In this document: positions 2,338 through 40,096 of the stretch, in pieces
Numbering within the stretch: the stretch's first letter is position 1
Layout: each line of letters starts with the position of its first letter
Source: Myxococcota bacterium
GTDB taxonomy: Bacteria; Myxococcota; B64-G9
Reading direction: 5' to 3'
Assembly: GCA_022710975.1 (NCBI GenBank)
Contig: JAKLGA010000003.1
Location: 248,001-312,000, forward strand
Length of the DNA: 64,000 nucleotides
Position numbers and translations under genes: made by a program
Notes under the pieces: generated by a model
Databases searched by the model: none
The model's input: the letters and a program-made list of their open reading frames with translations, nothing else
Told to the model about the DNA's origin: nothing

Positions 2338-5300
2338 TCACAGGGCGGCGTTGAGCGCCTTGCGCAGCCGGAAGTACTCGTCGCTGATGGAGTAGAAGAT
2401 CAGCTCGCGGATGAGGGTGCGGTGGGAGCCGGACGGGCTGACCACCCGGGCGGCCTTGAGCACCTGGACCGCGGCCTCGAGGTCGCCGCACAGGAGCAAC
2501 CCGGCCCGGTTGCAGGTGTGCTCGATGCCCTCCAGCCAGTCCCGAATGGACAGCTCCTCGGCCCGCTCGCGGAACTGCCCGGCCAGCTGGCGCAGCCGCT
2601 CCCGCTTGCCCTCGGGCACCTGGCGCCCCAGGCGCTTGGCCAGCTCGCTCACCTCCTGGTCCGCGGGCAGCACCGAGCCGCCCGGGAAGGCCAGCTCGAC
2701 CAGGGCGTCCAGGAGCTGGCGCAGCTGCTTGGGGCTCAGGCTGGCCGAGATCAGGTGCTCGGGCCGGGTGAAGGCCACCGCGCGGGCCGCCATGAAGCGC
2801 AGCTCGGCCACCGAGGCCAGCTTGGCGGCCTCCTCGGAGTACAGCACCGACACCGGCGAGGTGTTGAAGGCCATCAGCCCCTTGACCGACGGCCCGCGGG
2901 CGTACACCTCGGGCGGCGGCAGGCCGAGGCTGGAGACCGCCAGCTGCAGCACCTCGGCCAGCTTGGTCTGCGGCTTGGCGAGCTCGAGCCGGTCGCGGGC
3001 GCGCAGCTTGAGCTCCTTGGGGTCCACCAGGAACAGCGGCCGGGCGTAGTCCGCGGCGAAGGCGAACATCTCCCCCAGCAGGCCGCGGGCGCTCGGGTGC
3101 AGCAGCAGCTCGGCGTGCTCCGCCTCGCCCAGGTGGCGCCCCGGGGGCAGCGGCAGGGCGTGGCGGTTGGACCTGAGGAACTCGCGCTCGTCCTCGTCGG
3201 CCTCGTCCAGGAAGGCCAGGGTGGCGCACAGGCACAGGGTGCGATCGCGCTCGCCGCGGGTCTCGTAGATGCGCCGCAGCGCGTGGTAAGAGTCGATGGC
3301 GAAGGGGCTGTCGGCGATCAGCGAGCGGTGCAGCAGGATGGCCCGCTCGGCCAGCCCCTCGGCCTCGTACAGCCGGGCCAGATCCTCGCGCACCTTGAGC
3401 TGGCCCTTGTCGATGGCCAGCAGCGACTCGCAGCAGGCGATGGCCTTGCGGCGGTCCTCGATGCGGTAGCGGTACAGCTCGGTCAGCTCGGCCAGCATCG
3501 GCACCCGGCGGTCATCCTGGCCGGGGATGGGCGGGGGCAGGCGCTTGAGCTGATCCTCGTACAGGACCGCCAGGCGCTGCCAGTCCCGCTGGCGGGAGAG
3601 GATCTTGACCGCCTGCCCGTGGGCCCGGACGTCCAGGGGCGCGGCCTGCAGCGCGCGTACGTAGAACTCGAGCGCCCGCGCGTCGTCGTCCAGCCGCTCG
3701 CGGGCCAGATCGCCGGCGATGCGCAGGTAGCGAGCCCGCTCGCGCTCGTTGTCCGACAGGTGGGCCAGGCTCTCGAGCACGTCGACCGCCTCCGCGAACC
3801 GCTCGGCGTGGACCAGCACCCGGCGCAGGCTCTCGAGCAGGCGCAGGTTGCCCGGCTCCTGCTCGAGCGCCTGGCGGTAGGCCAGCGCGGCCTCCTCCGG
3901 GCGGTTCAGGGTGTCGGCCAGCAGATCGCCGATCTGCACCGACAGGTCCATGCGCCCGGCCGGCGAGGGGGTCAGCTCGCGCAGCCGGCTGAGCAGCGCC
4001 ACGGTCTCCGCGTGGAGCCCGAGGCCCCGGCTGAGCTCGAGCAGCGCCCGCAGGGCCGGCAGGTGGCGCGGGCGGATGGTCAGGGCGCCGCGGTAGTGGT
4101 CGGCCGCCTCGGCCGGCTGCCCGAGCTTGGCGTGGCCCTGGGCCGCCAGGCAGTGGAGGTCGGCGGCCTCGTCGTCCGAGAGCCGCGCCCGGTGGTCGGC
4201 CAGGATCTGGCGGTACAGCTCCACGGCCCGCTGCCACTGGCCGCGGCGGGCCAGGAAGAAGCCGTAGGCCCGCATGGCGGCGTACCCGCCCGGGGCGAGC
4301 GCCAGGCAGCGCTCGAAGGCCTGCTCCGCCTCCTCGAGCCGCTCGAGCGCCTCGGCCGTCTGGGCCAGCTTCAGCTCGACGGCCGCGAGCTCCTCGGGGG
4401 GCTGGCCCTCCTCCGCGCCGCGGCGCGCCAGGCGCTGCAGCAGCTCGAGCGCCTCGGCGTGATGGTGACCCTGGAGCTTGGCCTCGGCCACGAAGCGGGC
4501 GGCCTCGAGCTGATCGGGATCGAGCTCCAGGGCGCGCTGGTAGCACTCCATGGCCTTGTCGGTGTTCTCCAGCCGCTCGCGCCACACCCGGGCCAGTTCG
4601 ATCTGCAGCCCGGCCCGCTCGCGCGGCTCCACGGCCTGACGCAGCTGGATGTGGATCAGGCGCAGGAGCTCGACCCAGTCGCTCCGCCGGCGGGCCATGC
4701 CCTTGAGCGCCAGCAGCGCCTCGATGCACGGGCTCTCCCCCGCGACCGCCTGGCGGTAGGCCTCCTCGGCCTCCTCCGGCCGCAGGAGCTGCTCCTCCAG
4801 GATGCGCCCGATGCGGCAGTGGACCTGGTTGGACTGCGCGCGCTCCTTGAGCGCGCCGGCCGAGCGGCGCAGCACCTCCAGCGCCCCCAGCCAGTCGCGC
4901 CGGCGCTCCAGCAGATCCACCAGCGAGTCCAGCGCCGGCAGGCGGGAGGGATCGGCCTCCAGGGCGCGCCGGTAGCACCCCAGCGCCGCGTCGGGGTTGC
5001 GGAGCGTGCCCTCGTACAGCACGGCCATGGCCAGCAGCAGCTCGACCCGCTCGCCGACGTCCTCGACCAGCGGCGCGCGCCGCTCGTAGGCCTTGACCAG
5101 CTCCTCGTGGCGCTCGGTGCGCTCCAGGATCTCCTCCTGGATCTCGAGCGCCTCCAGATCGACGGGCTCGTCCGCCCGCAGCAGCGGCTCCAGATCCCGC
5201 AGCGCGTCGTCCAGCCGGCCGAGCTCGCGCGCGCGCAGGGCCGCCCGGCGCAGCAGCAGGGCGCGGCGCCGGGACGCATCCGGGGCGTCCTTGATGGCCC

Positions 5301-35902: not shown

Positions 35903-36562
35903 ATGATCCGGCGGCTCTCGGTCCTGCTCGCGGGCTGCGCGCTCCTCGCGGCCCCCGCGGCCGCGCGCGAGGGCTTCTCGCTCCAGCTCGGGCTGGGCGG
36001 GGGGTTCTTCGAGCTGAACAGCGGTGCCCTGGACAGCGCGCTCACCGAGATCGGCCGCGTCGGCGAGCGGCGCCTGCTGAGCTCACCCCTGGCCGACGGC
36101 CTGGCCGTGCGCTTCGCCCTGGCCTACAACATCAAGGGCTACGCCTCGCTCGAGCTGGGCATGACCGGCCACGGCTACAACCTGGACGACTCCGGGGCGC
36201 TGGGCGGCTCCGGCCACGTCAGCCTGGTGGCGCACCTGCACCCCTTCCAGTTCGTGTGGCCCGAGCGGGACTGGGACGCGAGCGTGTTCCTGGGCGGGGG
36301 CTGGAGCATCCTGGGCGGGGGCCAGCCCGGGAGCCAGGACGACCGCGGGCTGGACGGCGGGCAGCTCGAGTGCGGGCTCACCGGGCGCTACTTCCTCACC
36401 CGCTGGTTCTCGCTGGGGGCGGAGGTGCGCTTCAGCGTGCCCTTCTGGGATCGCTGGCACGTGGACTGGGAGGACGGCGAGGAGTACGACCTGCCCGGCA
36501 GCCCGACCTCGTTCTTCACGGCCGTGCTGCTGTCGATCGGCTTCCACTTCGTGCCGGGCTGA
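35903..36562 (+). CDS. Small outer-membrane beta-barrel protein
   Basis: The 219-residue protein starts at ATG 35903 after GGGAGG. The signal peptide ends APAAARE. Strands with alternating hydrophobic residues and Gly/aromatic turns run through the mature part: GFSLQLGLGGGFFEL, VRFALAYNIKGYASLELGMT, HVSLVAHLHPFQFV, DASVFLGGGWSIL, GLTGRYFLTRWFSLGAEVRFSVPFW, and finally SFFTAVLLSIGFHFVPG. This suggests an eight-stranded barrel of the OmpA/OmpW size class. No specific family can be named. It is followed 12 bases later by the receiver/RING-like gene, so the two may be co-transcribed. Confidence 0.8.
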   Translation: MIRRLSVLLAGCALLAAPAAAREGFSLQLGLGGGFFELNSGALDSALTEIGRVGERRLLSSPLADGLAVRFALAYNIKGYASLELGMTGHGYNLDDSGALGGSGHVSLVAHLHPFQFVWPERDWDASVFLGGGWSILGGGQPGSQDDRGLDGGQLECGLTGRYFLTRWFSLGAEVRFSVPFWDRWHVDWEDGEEYDLPGSPTSFFTAVLLSIGFHFVPG

Positions 36563-36574
36563 CGGGAGCTGCCC

Positions 36575-37294
36575 TTGCGCGGGCTCATCCTCGTCCTGCT
36601 GATCGGCTTCGCCGTCTTCCGGCTCGTGCGCTGGTGGATCCAGCGGGAGCTCGGGAAGGCGCCCCGGCCGGCCCTGGGCGAGGAGGGGGCGCCGGCCGTC
36701 CGGCCCGGGCCCGTCGCCGCCGTGCCTCCCCCGCCCGCGCGCGAGCGGCTGGCCCTGGCCGTGGAGGGGAGCCTGACCGTGGCCAAGGCGCTGGAGCTGG
36801 TGCTCGGGCCCGAGGGGTTCGAGGTGCGTTGCGTGGAGACCCCGGACGAGGTCGACCGGGCGCTCGACGCGGCTCGGCCGGAGGTGATCCTGCTGGATCC
36901 GGACCTCCTGGGCGCGGAGGCCCGGGGGCGGCTGGCGCGCCGGCTGAAGCAGGACGGGCGGCTCCAGGGGGTGCCGGTGGTGCTGATCGGCGAGACGGCG
37001 GAGAACCTCTGGCCGCTCGAGCCCGTGACCCAGCTGCCCCGCCCGTTCGAGAGCCAGGAGCTCGTCCACGTGGTGAGCTCGGCCGCGCTGGTGGGGAGGG
37101 CGAACGCGCCCCGGGTCGAGCACCCCGCGCAGGCGGCGGCCGCGGCCGTCGAGGCGCCCGTGTGCCCGGTCTGCAGCGACGAGATCGAGGGCGCGCCCAC
37201 GCGCTGCCCGGCCTGCGGTCGGGCGCACCATCCGGAGTGCTGGAAGCTCAACGACGGCTGCGGGTCCTGCGGGCCTCGTCCTCCAACGCCATGA
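36575..37294 (+). CDS. Membrane-anchored receiver-like domain fused to a prokaryotic RING-like zinc finger
   Basis: A 239-residue protein from TTG 36575 (GGGAG upstream). Residues 3-21 are a single membrane segment. A Pro/Ala linker follows. Residues about 58-172 have the alternating beta-alpha pattern of a response-regulator receiver: LALAVEGSLTVAKALELVL, VILLDPD with Asp108 at the phosphorylation position, VPVVLIGETAE. The acidic pair at the end of strand 1 and the conserved Lys are not evident, so the domain may be unphosphorylated. The C-terminus carries Cys197, Cys200, Cys211, Cys214, His218/His219, Cys222, Cys229 and Cys232, matching a Prok-RING-type double zinc site (CPVC, CPACGRAHHPECW, GCGSCG). 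The fusion and its membrane anchor are unusual. Confidence 0.75.
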   Translation: MRGLILVLLIGFAVFRLVRWWIQRELGKAPRPALGEEGAPAVRPGPVAAVPPPPARERLALAVEGSLTVAKALELVLGPEGFEVRCVETPDEVDRALDAARPEVILLDPDLLGAEARGRLARRLKQDGRLQGVPVVLIGETAENLWPLEPVTQLPRPFESQELVHVVSSAALVGRANAPRVEHPAQAAAAAVEAPVCPVCSDEIEGAPTRCPACGRAHHPECWKLNDGCGSCGPRPPTP

Positions 37295-37303
37295 TAAGAT
37301 TGA

Positions 37304-37356
37304 ATTGACGCAAAAATGACGCGCGTCAAAACCGCCAGAAAGTGGCTGGCACCTTT
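37304..37356 (+). repeat. Palindromic repeat, copy 1
   Basis: It starts with ATTGACGCAA, then the palindrome TGACGCGCGTCA (37317-37328), and ends with AAGTGGCTGGCACCTTT, a slightly damaged version of the hairpin in copy 2. It lies just after the stop of the receiver/RING-like gene and covers the proposed GTG start of the next gene. Confidence 0.75.
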
Positions 37357-38058
37357 CCATGGGGGCTCGTCGTGGGGCAGATGCACCTCTCCTCGGTGAC
37401 CCTGGACTGGCTGGTCGAGCGCGCGACCGCCATCCTCGAGGTGAGTCCGCTGGACCCGGAGTGGCGTCCGCGGGAGCTCGCGTGCGGCCCGGGGGTCGAG
37501 CCCTTCCAGCACGCGGAGCGGAAAGTCCGGGTGGCCGGGGTGCTGCGCGCCCCGGCCGGGATCCAGGCCGGGCAGGAGCTGGTGTGGACCTCGTTCTGCG
37601 GCCTGTCGCTGCGCCTGCACCTCGACTACCACCTCCGGGGAATCAGCCGCCACGTGGCAGTCGAGCAGTACGCTCCCTCCGTGCCCCTGCCCGTGGATCC
37701 AGCCGCGTCCCGCATTCTGTTCCTGGAGCGGCGGGCCTTCGTGCGGTTCGAGCCGGGCAGGGACCGGCTGACGAAGGAGATAGACGCCCACGCCGCGGTC
37801 TGTCTCGGGGCGGAGGAGGCGTGCGAGCGCAGGGCGGAGATCGCGGCCCTGGCAGGATCGTCCCCGGCGCCCGGATCGCTCGGCGCCAGGGGGGTGGGCA
37901 TCGTCGTCGGGGTGGTCGGGAAGGACGGGGACGGAGAGCTCGGGACCCGGGCCGGAGATCGGCTCGGGGAACGCATCCGGGGGCTCTTCCCCGGAGAGCC
38001 CGCGCTCTCCTGGACCCTCCTGGGTATGCCGTGTAACTCCTCGAAAGGACGAGATTGA
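37342..38058 (+). CDS. Orphan hypothetical protein between two repeat copies
   Basis: This 238-residue reading runs from GTG 37342 to TGA 38058. An internal ATG at 37381 (MHLSSVTLDWLVER) is an equally good start because the GTG lies inside the repeat. The product has no signal peptide, membrane segment or motif I know. It begins with a helix, then HAERKVRVAGVLRAPAGIQ, a beta-rich centre (RLHLDYHLRGISRHVAVEQY), a region with RAFVRFEPGRDRLTKE and a Gly-rich stretch (ARGVGIVVGVVG). The codon bias fits the window, so it is probably real. Its start overlaps repeat copy 1 and its stop lies in copy 2, as if gene and repeats had moved or duplicated together. Confidence 0.55.
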   Translation: MAGTFPWGLVVGQMHLSSVTLDWLVERATAILEVSPLDPEWRPRELACGPGVEPFQHAERKVRVAGVLRAPAGIQAGQELVWTSFCGLSLRLHLDYHLRGISRHVAVEQYAPSVPLPVDPAASRILFLERRAFVRFEPGRDRLTKEIDAHAAVCLGAEEACERRAEIAALAGSSPAPGSLGARGVGIVVGVVGKDGDGELGTRAGDRLGERIRGLFPGEPALSWTLLGMPCNSSKGRD

Positions 38059-38107
38059 CGCAAGATTGACGCGCGTCAAAATGCGTCCAAAGGTGGCTGG
38101 CACCTTC
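38054..38107 (+). repeat. Palindromic repeat, copy 2
   Basis: ATTGACGCAAG is followed by the perfect 14-base palindrome TTGACGCGCGTCAA (38066-38079) and by the hairpin AAGGTG-GCTGG-CACCTT (38090-38106). It lies between the convergent genes ending at 38058 and 38114 and could also end transcription. It is about 75% identical to copy 1, by eye. Confidence 0.75.
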
Positions 38108-38113
38108 TCCCGC

Positions 38114-40045
38114 TCATGGCGCGTACCAGATGGGGGAGGTCCAGGCCCGCTCCTGCACCGCGCGGTAGAAGCGCGGATCGGAGCAGCTCTCCGGGAGGTC
38201 CGCGCCGGCCTGGGCCAGGGCGTGGCACTGCCGCACGCTCCAGCGGCAGGTGGGCACCTCGAGCACGCGCGCGTAGTAGAAGGCGGGCAGGACCGGGTCG
38301 AACTCCGGGTCGACGTGCTCGGCGCACAGGCTCGGCGCCCCGCCCGCCGAGGTCTCGCAGGTCTCGAGATCCACGCTGGCCGGCTGGTCGCTCACGGCGA
38401 GATCGAGCACCCGCTCGTGCCAGGCTCCGGCCCCGTCCAGCCAGCCCTTGACCAGCTGCAGCCGCTCGAGCGGCAGCCCGGGCGTCCCGGGCGCGCCGGG
38501 GTCGGCCTCGGCCTCCACCACCAGGCGGAGCGGCCGTCCGGCCGCGTCGGGCCCGAGCTCGCCGCCCATGGGCACCCCGCCGGCGTAGCCGCGCGCCACG
38601 CGATCCCCCCGCGCGCACCAGCCCTCCGGCAGCCCGAACCCGGCGAAGGCCCGCACCCGGATGCGGGTGCCGCTGGTGCCGTACACCTCGCGCCGGCGGA
38701 GCGCCTCGAACAGCGCGTCGCGCGAGTTCTCCACGGCCCAGATGGCCGCCAGGCCGCCCGGGTTGTAGAGCACCCCGTGGTGGGTCATGTTGCCGCGCCC
38801 CAGGCGGTCCTCGGGCAGATCGTCGGTCGAGCCCACGTGGCCGTGGAACACGGGCTCGTCCACGTCGCCCGGGGTGGCGTTGTGGGTGTCGGTCGAGCCG
38901 ATCACCCCGAACCGGTAAGGGTTCACTCCCAGCCGGGCCCGCTCCTGCAACCCCAGCTTGAACACGTTCCTGAGGAAGTCGAGCCGGGACACGCAGCCCA
39001 TCAGGCTGACCCCGCCCGCGCCGACCGTGTCGCCGCAGTCCTCGAACGGCGCGTGGCGCTGCTTCTCGTACTCGCACAGCGGGTCGGCCTCCCCGCCCAG
39101 GCCGCTCAGGTTGCTCTCGCACTCCATGTCGCCCTTGTGCTGGAAGATCTCTGCCACTGGCTCCAGGCGGGCGCGCGTGGCGGCGAGCGCCGCCTGGGCG
39201 CGGGAGGTGCGCGCGTCCTCGTAGTCCGGGGTGTAGAGCTGGCCGTTCGACCAGTTGGAGTTGTGCGGGATGGAGATGAGCTCGCAGCCGGTCCCGGCCT
39301 CCAGGCAGGTCCGATCGAGCTGGCGCCAGAGCTCCCAGACCGTGGAGGCCTCGAAGAACGAGGGCGGCAGCGCCGGCACGTTCGCGTTCCGGTAGATCAC
39401 GTTGCGGTGCAGGTTGGTGATGCTGATCGCGTTGGTGTACTCGTAGGCCGGGAAGGCGCTGAAGGAGCAGGCCGCGCTCTTGTCATCGGCCGCCTCCGCC
39501 GCGGCCACGATCTCCGCCCACACCCCGGTGGCCCAGTCGAGGCAGCCCTGGGGCGCGGGCGCGCACACGTCCTCGAAGCGCGCCGGGTCCGAGATGGCGA
39601 GCTGGGTCCCGAACAGGACCACGTTGCCCATGTCGCCCTGGCGGTAGTCGGTGCAGGTCTCGCAGCCGTGGGTCGGAGAGCCGGCCGTGGTGCACAGGCC
39701 CACCTCGCCCAGGAACTCGTGGTGGTCGGTGACCGCGGCGAAGTCCAGCGGGCGGTCCAGGCGCACCTCGACGCTGCCGCCCTCGGCCGCGAGCTCGAGC
39801 GCCTCTCCGCGCGCGAAACGGTACGCGTCGGCGGGGGCGTGGTGGGTGCCGTAGGCCCAGGCGTCGAAGGAGAGGCCCGTGTGGGCGTGGAGATCCCCGA
39901 AGTACACGTTCCGCTCCGGGTTCCGGTCCGCGCAGGGCTCGCGCGCCTGGGTGTAGGTGACCAGCGGGGCCGCGCTCTCCCCGGGACAGCCCGGAAGCAG
40001 CGCGCAGGCGAGCAACAGCCAGGGGGGGAGGGATCGGGTGTGCAT
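38114..40045 (-). CDS. DUF3604 family lipoprotein (PHP-like metal-dependent fold)
   Basis: A 643-residue protein from ATG 40045. The signal peptide ends LLPGC, with lipidated Cys20. It matches DUF3604 throughout: NVYFGDLHAHTGLSFDAW (metal-site GDLHAHT at 50-56), DAYRFARGE, FAAVTDHHEFLGEV, SIPHNSNWSNG, FGVIGSTDTHNATPG and GHVGSTDDLPEDR. The several His/Asp motifs correspond to metal ligands of the PHP-type phosphoesterase fold. A Cys-rich insertion (CTTAGSPTHGCETC) is typical of the exported branch. Substrates of the family are unknown. The gene ends 7 bases from repeat copy 2. No Shine-Dalgarno is seen before the ATG. Confidence 0.88.
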   Translation of the reverse strand: MHTRSLPPWLLLACALLPGCPGESAAPLVTYTQAREPCADRNPERNVYFGDLHAHTGLSFDAWAYGTHHAPADAYRFARGEALELAAEGGSVEVRLDRPLDFAAVTDHHEFLGEVGLCTTAGSPTHGCETCTDYRQGDMGNVVLFGTQLAISDPARFEDVCAPAPQGCLDWATGVWAEIVAAAEAADDKSAACSFSAFPAYEYTNAISITNLHRNVIYRNANVPALPPSFFEASTVWELWRQLDRTCLEAGTGCELISIPHNSNWSNGQLYTPDYEDARTSRAQAALAATRARLEPVAEIFQHKGDMECESNLSGLGGEADPLCEYEKQRHAPFEDCGDTVGAGGVSLMGCVSRLDFLRNVFKLGLQERARLGVNPYRFGVIGSTDTHNATPGDVDEPVFHGHVGSTDDLPEDRLGRGNMTHHGVLYNPGGLAAIWAVENSRDALFEALRRREVYGTSGTRIRVRAFAGFGLPEGWCARGDRVARGYAGGVPMGGELGPDAAGRPLRLVVEAEADPGAPGTPGLPLERLQLVKGWLDGAGAWHERVLDLAVSDQPASVDLETCETSAGGAPSLCAEHVDPEFDPVLPAFYYARVLEVPTCRWSVRQCHALAQAGADLPESCSDPRFYRAVQERAWTSPIWYAP

Positions 40046-40096
40046 GGGGGCCAAGGGGAGCACGACCGGGCCCGACGCGCAAGCTCCCGCGGGGCA

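Follow-up and report, generated by a model that had tools for sequence, protein, structure and literature searches.

A REP-like composite repeat family in an uncultured Myxococcota lineage and a secreted-type protein gene apparently clipped by one of its copies

RAYT and TIRYT systems (REPtrons and TIRtrons) are described by Di Nocera et al. (2013; PMC3733652) as Y1 HUH genes flanked by short inverted repeats; according to the same source the repeats (REPs and TIRs) also occur alone or paired between genes, mostly downstream of coding regions. In REPINs, as presented by Bertels and Rainey (2011; PMC3116915), inverted short ends enclose a further stretch and fold as one hairpin, singlets are seen as likely remnants, and the transposase gene is described as single copy. 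For TnpA-REP classes having a large C-terminal domain, the abstract of PMC6006769 states that they are not associated with REPs. A search of the literature on REPs or tyrosine transposases in myxobacteria found nothing relevant.

The DNA considered here (the window) is a stretch of 64,000 nucleotides on contig JAKLGA010000003.1 of a Myxococcota bacterium, and window coordinates are contig coordinates minus 248000. Two copies of a repeat, placed by a first-pass annotation at 37304-37356 and 38054-38107, are indeed found there. They are direct repeats lying 750-751 nt apart (D1/D2; 47 nt at 77% and 28 nt at 79%), with G+C contents of 47% and 53% against 72% for the window. A sequence-only model (R1), whose training set included both copies, gives them slightly wider spans, 37280..37358 for copy 1 (E 3.0e-18, 67.7 bits) and 38030..38109 for copy 2 (E 2.3e-18, 68.1 bits), both on the minus strand, the element strand being defined as the one beginning AAAGGTGCCAGCC.

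The repeat is composite, consisting of a TGACGC palindrome module and a GGCTGGCACC end. Motif search places the palindrome TTGACGCGCGTCAA at 38066..38079 in copy 2 and its one-mismatch form ATGACGCGCGTCAA at 37316..37329 in copy 1 (no strand assigned). The palindrome is thus common to both copies, as annotated, and with up to two mismatches these are its only sites in the window, while shuffled windows hold 0.15 on average and 0 of 100 reach two. The transposase-type end GTGGCTGGCACCTT is matched exactly in both copies, on the plus strand, at 37342..37355 and 38093..38106; taken alone with three mismatches it is little above chance, with 14 sites in the window against a shuffle mean of 9.1 (5 of 100 shuffles reach 14). 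The hairpin proposed for both copies stands for copy 2 when single-stranded folding is compared with shuffles (z -3.27; 0/200 as good) and weakly for copy 1 (z -1.78; 11/200). A promoter-like match lies inside copy 2 at 38055-38082 (shuffle mean 0.0); a promoter or terminator role for the repeats was considered and set aside.

The repeat is not confined to the window. The organism's own genome (7.13 Mb, 29 contigs) holds at least 11 strong copies of an 83-position element. A first alignment comprised 14 stretches, from which L044 (without a full core), L066 and L067 were left out, and the 11 kept are L007, L008, L009, L010, L012, L013, L015, L016, L040 and the two window copies. The model built on them recovers the same 11 with E-values from 2.3e-18 to 4.3e-12; as these are its own training sequences, the strong set equals the training set, and with the best 150 of 1606 first-look candidates scored in the search, the true number of copies is at least 11. 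Beyond them are 14 partial or weaker matches up to E 1, several being the opposite strand of the same copies, and including one of 26 bits at C1:855302. Seven of the strong copies fall on contig C23, which makes up 7.5% of the genome (binomial P 3.4e-6). Motif counts agree in kind: GTGGCTGGCACCTT has 6 exact sites (reversed control 0), and the palindrome 6 exact sites and 11 with at most one mismatch (reversed control 0), one of which, L014, was dropped as it has no GTGCC end. With 28 sites of AAGGTGCCWGSC and 1 of the reversed pattern, the GGCTGGCACC end is a dispersed repeat; judged by eye, some of these sites are in coding sequence.

On the strand beginning AAAGGTGCCAGCC, this end is followed by a variable stretch, TTTTGACGCGCGTCA, a GCGTCAA box and an edge in which GTT is invariant. 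The TTGACGCG and GCGTCAA boxes are the longest runs of invariant columns in the 11-copy alignment, and in the consensus fold the GCGTCAA box pairs with the first TTGACGC; this fold has 10 pairs with compensatory changes in none, and therefore no covariation support. By eye, four own copies (L007, L008, L012, L013) show a second end in inverted orientation, either GGCTGGCACC or a close variant of it, and L007 folds end to end as a single hairpin (z -2.91; 2/200 shuffles as good). The other seven, including both window copies, have no second inverted end by eye; both window copies presumably once had one.

Five Y1_Tnp genes (PF01797) are above the Pfam cut-off in the own genome, so that candidates for a transposase of the type suggested by the first-pass annotation are present. 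All five have NCBIfam REP_Tyr_transpos as their best model, at E 4.1e-11 to 6.3e-13, with 43-49 bits against a cut-off of 80. A further Y1_Tnp fragment is found on C1, and the C1 transposase copy is interrupted by a stop codon. Four of the five genes have CTGGCACC, the counterpart of the GGCTGGCACC end of the composite repeat, upstream, and two of these four also have GGTGCCAG downstream, while the fifth gene (L022) shows no such ends. The C4 and C1 transposase copies are homologous up to 10 nt past CTGGCACC, and the C4 and C5 copies up to a point before CTGGCACC (L109, 3113 vs. 3156; L111, 3025 vs. 3173). A further palindromic stretch, GTGACCGGAATCCGGTCAC, lies upstream of two transposase copies (L109, about 3065-3113; L111, about 2980-3025). 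The TGACGC module is absent from the transposase elements and does not flank the transposase genes; the link between module and transposase consequently rests on the shared ends and on two copies in the genome G003. Judged from these sequences, a transposase of this kind would move the element.

The earlier REP/RAYT reading is supported in that the repeat is dispersed and its ends match those of four of the five Y1_Tnp genes, but the canonical GTAG foot is absent. The unpaired GT[AG]G foot of the GTAG superfamily is not seen, the GTGG of the window copies being at least partly paired in predicted folds, with ATGGG or GACC in the corresponding place at the ends of the transposase genes. Nor is the unpaired foot of the CGTC superfamily (8-9 bp stem, 4-5 nt loop) seen, as CGTC is part of the TTGACGCG/TGCGTCAA stem in the consensus fold. 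As in REPtrons and TIRtrons, the ends of the transposase genes also occur dispersed between genes; unlike them, the system here has no conserved unpaired GTAG or CGTC foot, has a low copy number, and carries in its dispersed element an extra conserved palindrome module that is absent from the transposase elements. With REPINs, on the published description (PMC3116915), it appears to share inverted short ends, a stretch between them, the single hairpin of L007 and singlets that are likely remnants, but only 4 of its own 11 copies keep both ends, conservation of the inner module is strong and the transposase gene occurs in several related copies. In these transposases the Y1 core is followed by a long C-terminal part, and by this feature alone they are like the large-C-terminal TnpA-REP classes, from which they differ in having repeats at the ends of their genes. 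The family thus looks like a new one of a known kind of mobile repeat and otherwise fits known REP-like DNA, the conserved inner palindrome being its unusual feature.

Transposase homologues were found in all 8 family relatives searched and in 21 of 58 genomes overall, own included; the genomes compared with the own one all belong to other genera. Palindrome matches are restricted to 3 of the 58, own included, the other two being G003 (L066) and G042 (L067); the G042 match was rejected as an element, its flanks being unlike it. G003, which belongs to another genus, has a full element copy, and a model search of it gives two composite places, whereas seven other family genomes have no model match at E 0.1 (best 150 candidates scored in each). 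The cores of both G003 composite copies align, up to the GTT, with the window copies, most visibly with copy 1. Both have GTGGGTGGTACC at the right end, and at the left end one has GTGCCACCCAC and the other a changed GTGCTGCCCACC, so that by eye one inverted doublet is clear and one has a changed left end. In G003 a transposase gene lies between clusters that contain GGTGCCACCC and GGGTGGCACC; in L132 (G003:C544) a transposase gene has a AAAAAAGGTGCC cluster at one flank and repeated TTTGGGTGGCACCTACGATGGGG at the opposite one (1130-1230 and 2590-2690). A variant end, GGGTGG(C/T)ACC, is common to a transposase gene and both composite copies of G003. The ends of the transposase element and of the composite repeat therefore seem, from these comparisons, to have changed together between genera. 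Transposase relatives in G006, G005, G030 and G004 show no clear matching ends in the stretches examined.

According to a simple codon-usage gene caller, each of the 11 strong copies is intergenic or overlaps the end of a gene, some of the gene calls being low-scoring, and REPs are reported in similar placement (PMC3733652). The neighbouring genes are convergent at 4 copies, co-directional at 5 and divergent at 2. At the C27 copy the called start lies about 50 nt inside the repeat, a later start being equally likely. At the copy at C23:104438 a gene with a RelA/SpoT domain (L104, 18480-19883, near C23 position 104479; PF04607, E 8.4e-35) ends inside the repeat, like the gene in the window; the left repeat edge contains its final codons and stop, and its product ends in NPPESLN. 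At the co-directional copies it is the GTT edge, not the GGTGCC end, that faces the stop of the upstream gene in 4 of 5 cases, too few for a test.

Such a placement is compatible with a functional intergenic element, in which the palindromes would be a regulator-binding site or a transcript-end hairpin under selection and the spread by transposase a thing of the past only. One or both flanking genes end towards the repeat at 9 of the 11 copies, and the two boxes with the longest invariant runs are kept in another genus. Set against this, no terminator-like site was found in 36500-38600, the copies are few and clustered on C23, and the names of the neighbours reveal no common class of neighbouring gene. 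We consider this explanation improbable, although it is the strongest competitor of a reading in which the repeats are old insertions of a mobile element.

The gene between the window copies encodes a secreted-type protein without a named family (37342..38058, plus strand). The annotation had it start in one copy and stop in the other, and this is what the 238-aa open reading frame does, with its GTG inside copy 1 (37342, supplied in frame by the GTGGCTGGCACCTT end) and its last codons and TGA (38056-38058) in copy 2. The part supported by homology begins at about 37354, and the codon-usage gene caller prefers an ATG at 37381. No Pfam family matches at E<=1, and the one NCBIfam match, EpsX, is negligible (13.2 of 550 bits). 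The gene is not the orphan it was taken for, as homologues exist in G008 (38%, E 5.2e-33; the sole other match among 58 genomes, own included) and in G190 (E 2.5e-54). A two-row profile matched 7 of 195 genomes of the phylum with at most the best 13 candidates scored per genome, namely the own genome, G008 and G190 (strong) and four weakly; a scan of genome contigs with the clipped protein gave no match.

Both homologues begin with signal-peptide-like stretches, MRIRAFVIFATVLFFPW... and MRRVGTLLMFLALLIVPR..., a call that is based on hydropathy, and the window protein has no such stretch; the hydropathy maxima are 3.4 and 2.9 in the homologues against 1.3 in the window protein. In the three-row alignment (A3) the window protein joins at FPW, directly at the CACCTTT of the repeat. 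The N-terminus is defined here by two good homologues; the FPW anchor is short, and the repeat may have contributed its F codon. With the start of its homologues missing from the window protein and the break at the repeat end, the simplest explanation is loss of the signal-peptide start to the repeat itself or to a deletion that stops there. GC3 of the gene is 0.88, compared with 0.95-0.98 in five neighbours, and the frame is otherwise open, so that the gene was either clipped recently or is used without export; its product is presumably no longer exported, or not made. This beheading of one gene is probable.

The upstream neighbour (36575..37294, plus strand) encodes a small response-regulator-like protein, a receiver-like stretch joined to a RING-like zinc-binding end, both matches being below curated cut-offs, and the left edge of copy 1 contains the stop codon of this gene. 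The downstream neighbour (38114..40063, minus strand) is convergent and encodes a DUF3604 protein (PF12228, E 1.9e-154), whose named relatives are labelled Myxococcota, Myxococcales or Deltaproteobacteria in 9 of 13 cases. Within the flanks examined, neither the clipped gene nor any of six further window proteins has a homologue at the 13 named DUF3604 loci.

That the gene starts and stops inside two copies of the same orientation is also what a cassette or composite transposon would give, i.e., two direct repeats and a gene forming one mobile or exchangeable unit, such as an integron cassette or repeat-flanked cargo. The idea of a repeat travelling with a gene, put forward in the first-pass annotation, fares poorly, since the 11 strong copies adjoin different genes and the window copies are not each other's nearest relatives. 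They are 71% alike, whereas copy 1 and L016 share 76% identity, as do copy 2 and L013, and in 500 bootstraps each is nearest to the other in 60 and 44 only; by the same identities and bootstraps, a local duplication of one repeat within the window is disfavoured. Homologues of the gene occur with no such repeat seen close by: no GGTGCCAG or CTGGCACC is near the G008 and G190 genes in the stretches examined (one TTGACGC is about 1.5 kb from the G008 gene), and a model search of G008 was negative (best 150 of 1170 candidates scored). Conservation of the gene without the repeats is an outcome that the first-pass annotation had itself named as refuting its reading. The window gene, moreover, is clipped.

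A second direct pair on C2 (119631 and 120878) also encloses one gene, which has a penicillin-binding transpeptidase domain (119785-120588, minus strand; PF00905, E 3.5e-30) and is oriented to the element in the same way as the window gene. The members of this pair (L106; G000:C2:119631-119761 and 120878-121020) are the closest copies of all, 88% alike and both two-ended, and their likeness is still seen a few bases beyond the right end, a trace that local duplication could produce. The pair may be a local duplication, which its 88% identity also fits, and its gene is uncut by the copies, with about 290 nt left before the second. An integron cassette was rejected, as no integron integrase is above the TIGR02249 cut-off (best 82.7 of 265 bits); weaker integron-integrase matches are also present in all 14 control genomes. 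Ends of attC sites are RYYYAAC and GTTRRRY, and against this consensus the edges here show, by eye, AAC on one side and no GTT on the other. As two of two close direct pairs enclose a gene, the cassette is kept in consideration, though as a very unlikely arrangement.

A chance likeness of two AT-rich intergenic stretches, to which the modest folding of copy 1 and the near-chance level of GTGGCTGGCACCTT with three mismatches might point, has virtually no probability, being refuted by the eleven strong copies and contradicted by the reversed-pattern controls (0, 0 and 1), by the absence of two palindromes from all 100 shuffles and by related copies in another genus.

The reading we favour, and hold to be probably correct, is that the window contains two independent, old insertions of a non-autonomous REPIN- or MITE-like element of RAYT type, one of which beheaded a gene, and that the gene between them is a coincidence and not a mobile cassette. 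Y1/RAYT-type transposases encoded in the same genome would probably recognise the GGTGCCAGCC...GGCTGGCACC ends, the conserved palindromic module with its TTGACGCGCGTCAA and GCGTCAA boxes would lie between these ends, and such elements would land between genes. One element may have landed inside the signal-peptide codons of a secreted-protein gene, or a deletion may have run up to it there; the other may have landed at the 3' end of this gene and would now supply its last codons and stop.

A broader interpretation, which we regard as rather unlikely but worth stating, is that the ends of the family track the RAYT-type transposase of the lineage from genus to genus while the inner TTGACGCGCGTCAA module is kept. 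If so, the module may have a job of its own, e.g., as a binding site for a host protein or a second transposase-binding site, and insertions would remodel neighbouring genes by supplying a start, last codons or a stop. For the biology of this uncultured and little-known lineage, the finding means a repeat family whose ends match those of its transposase genes, and a concrete case in which a REP-like repeat appears to have removed the export signal of a gene.
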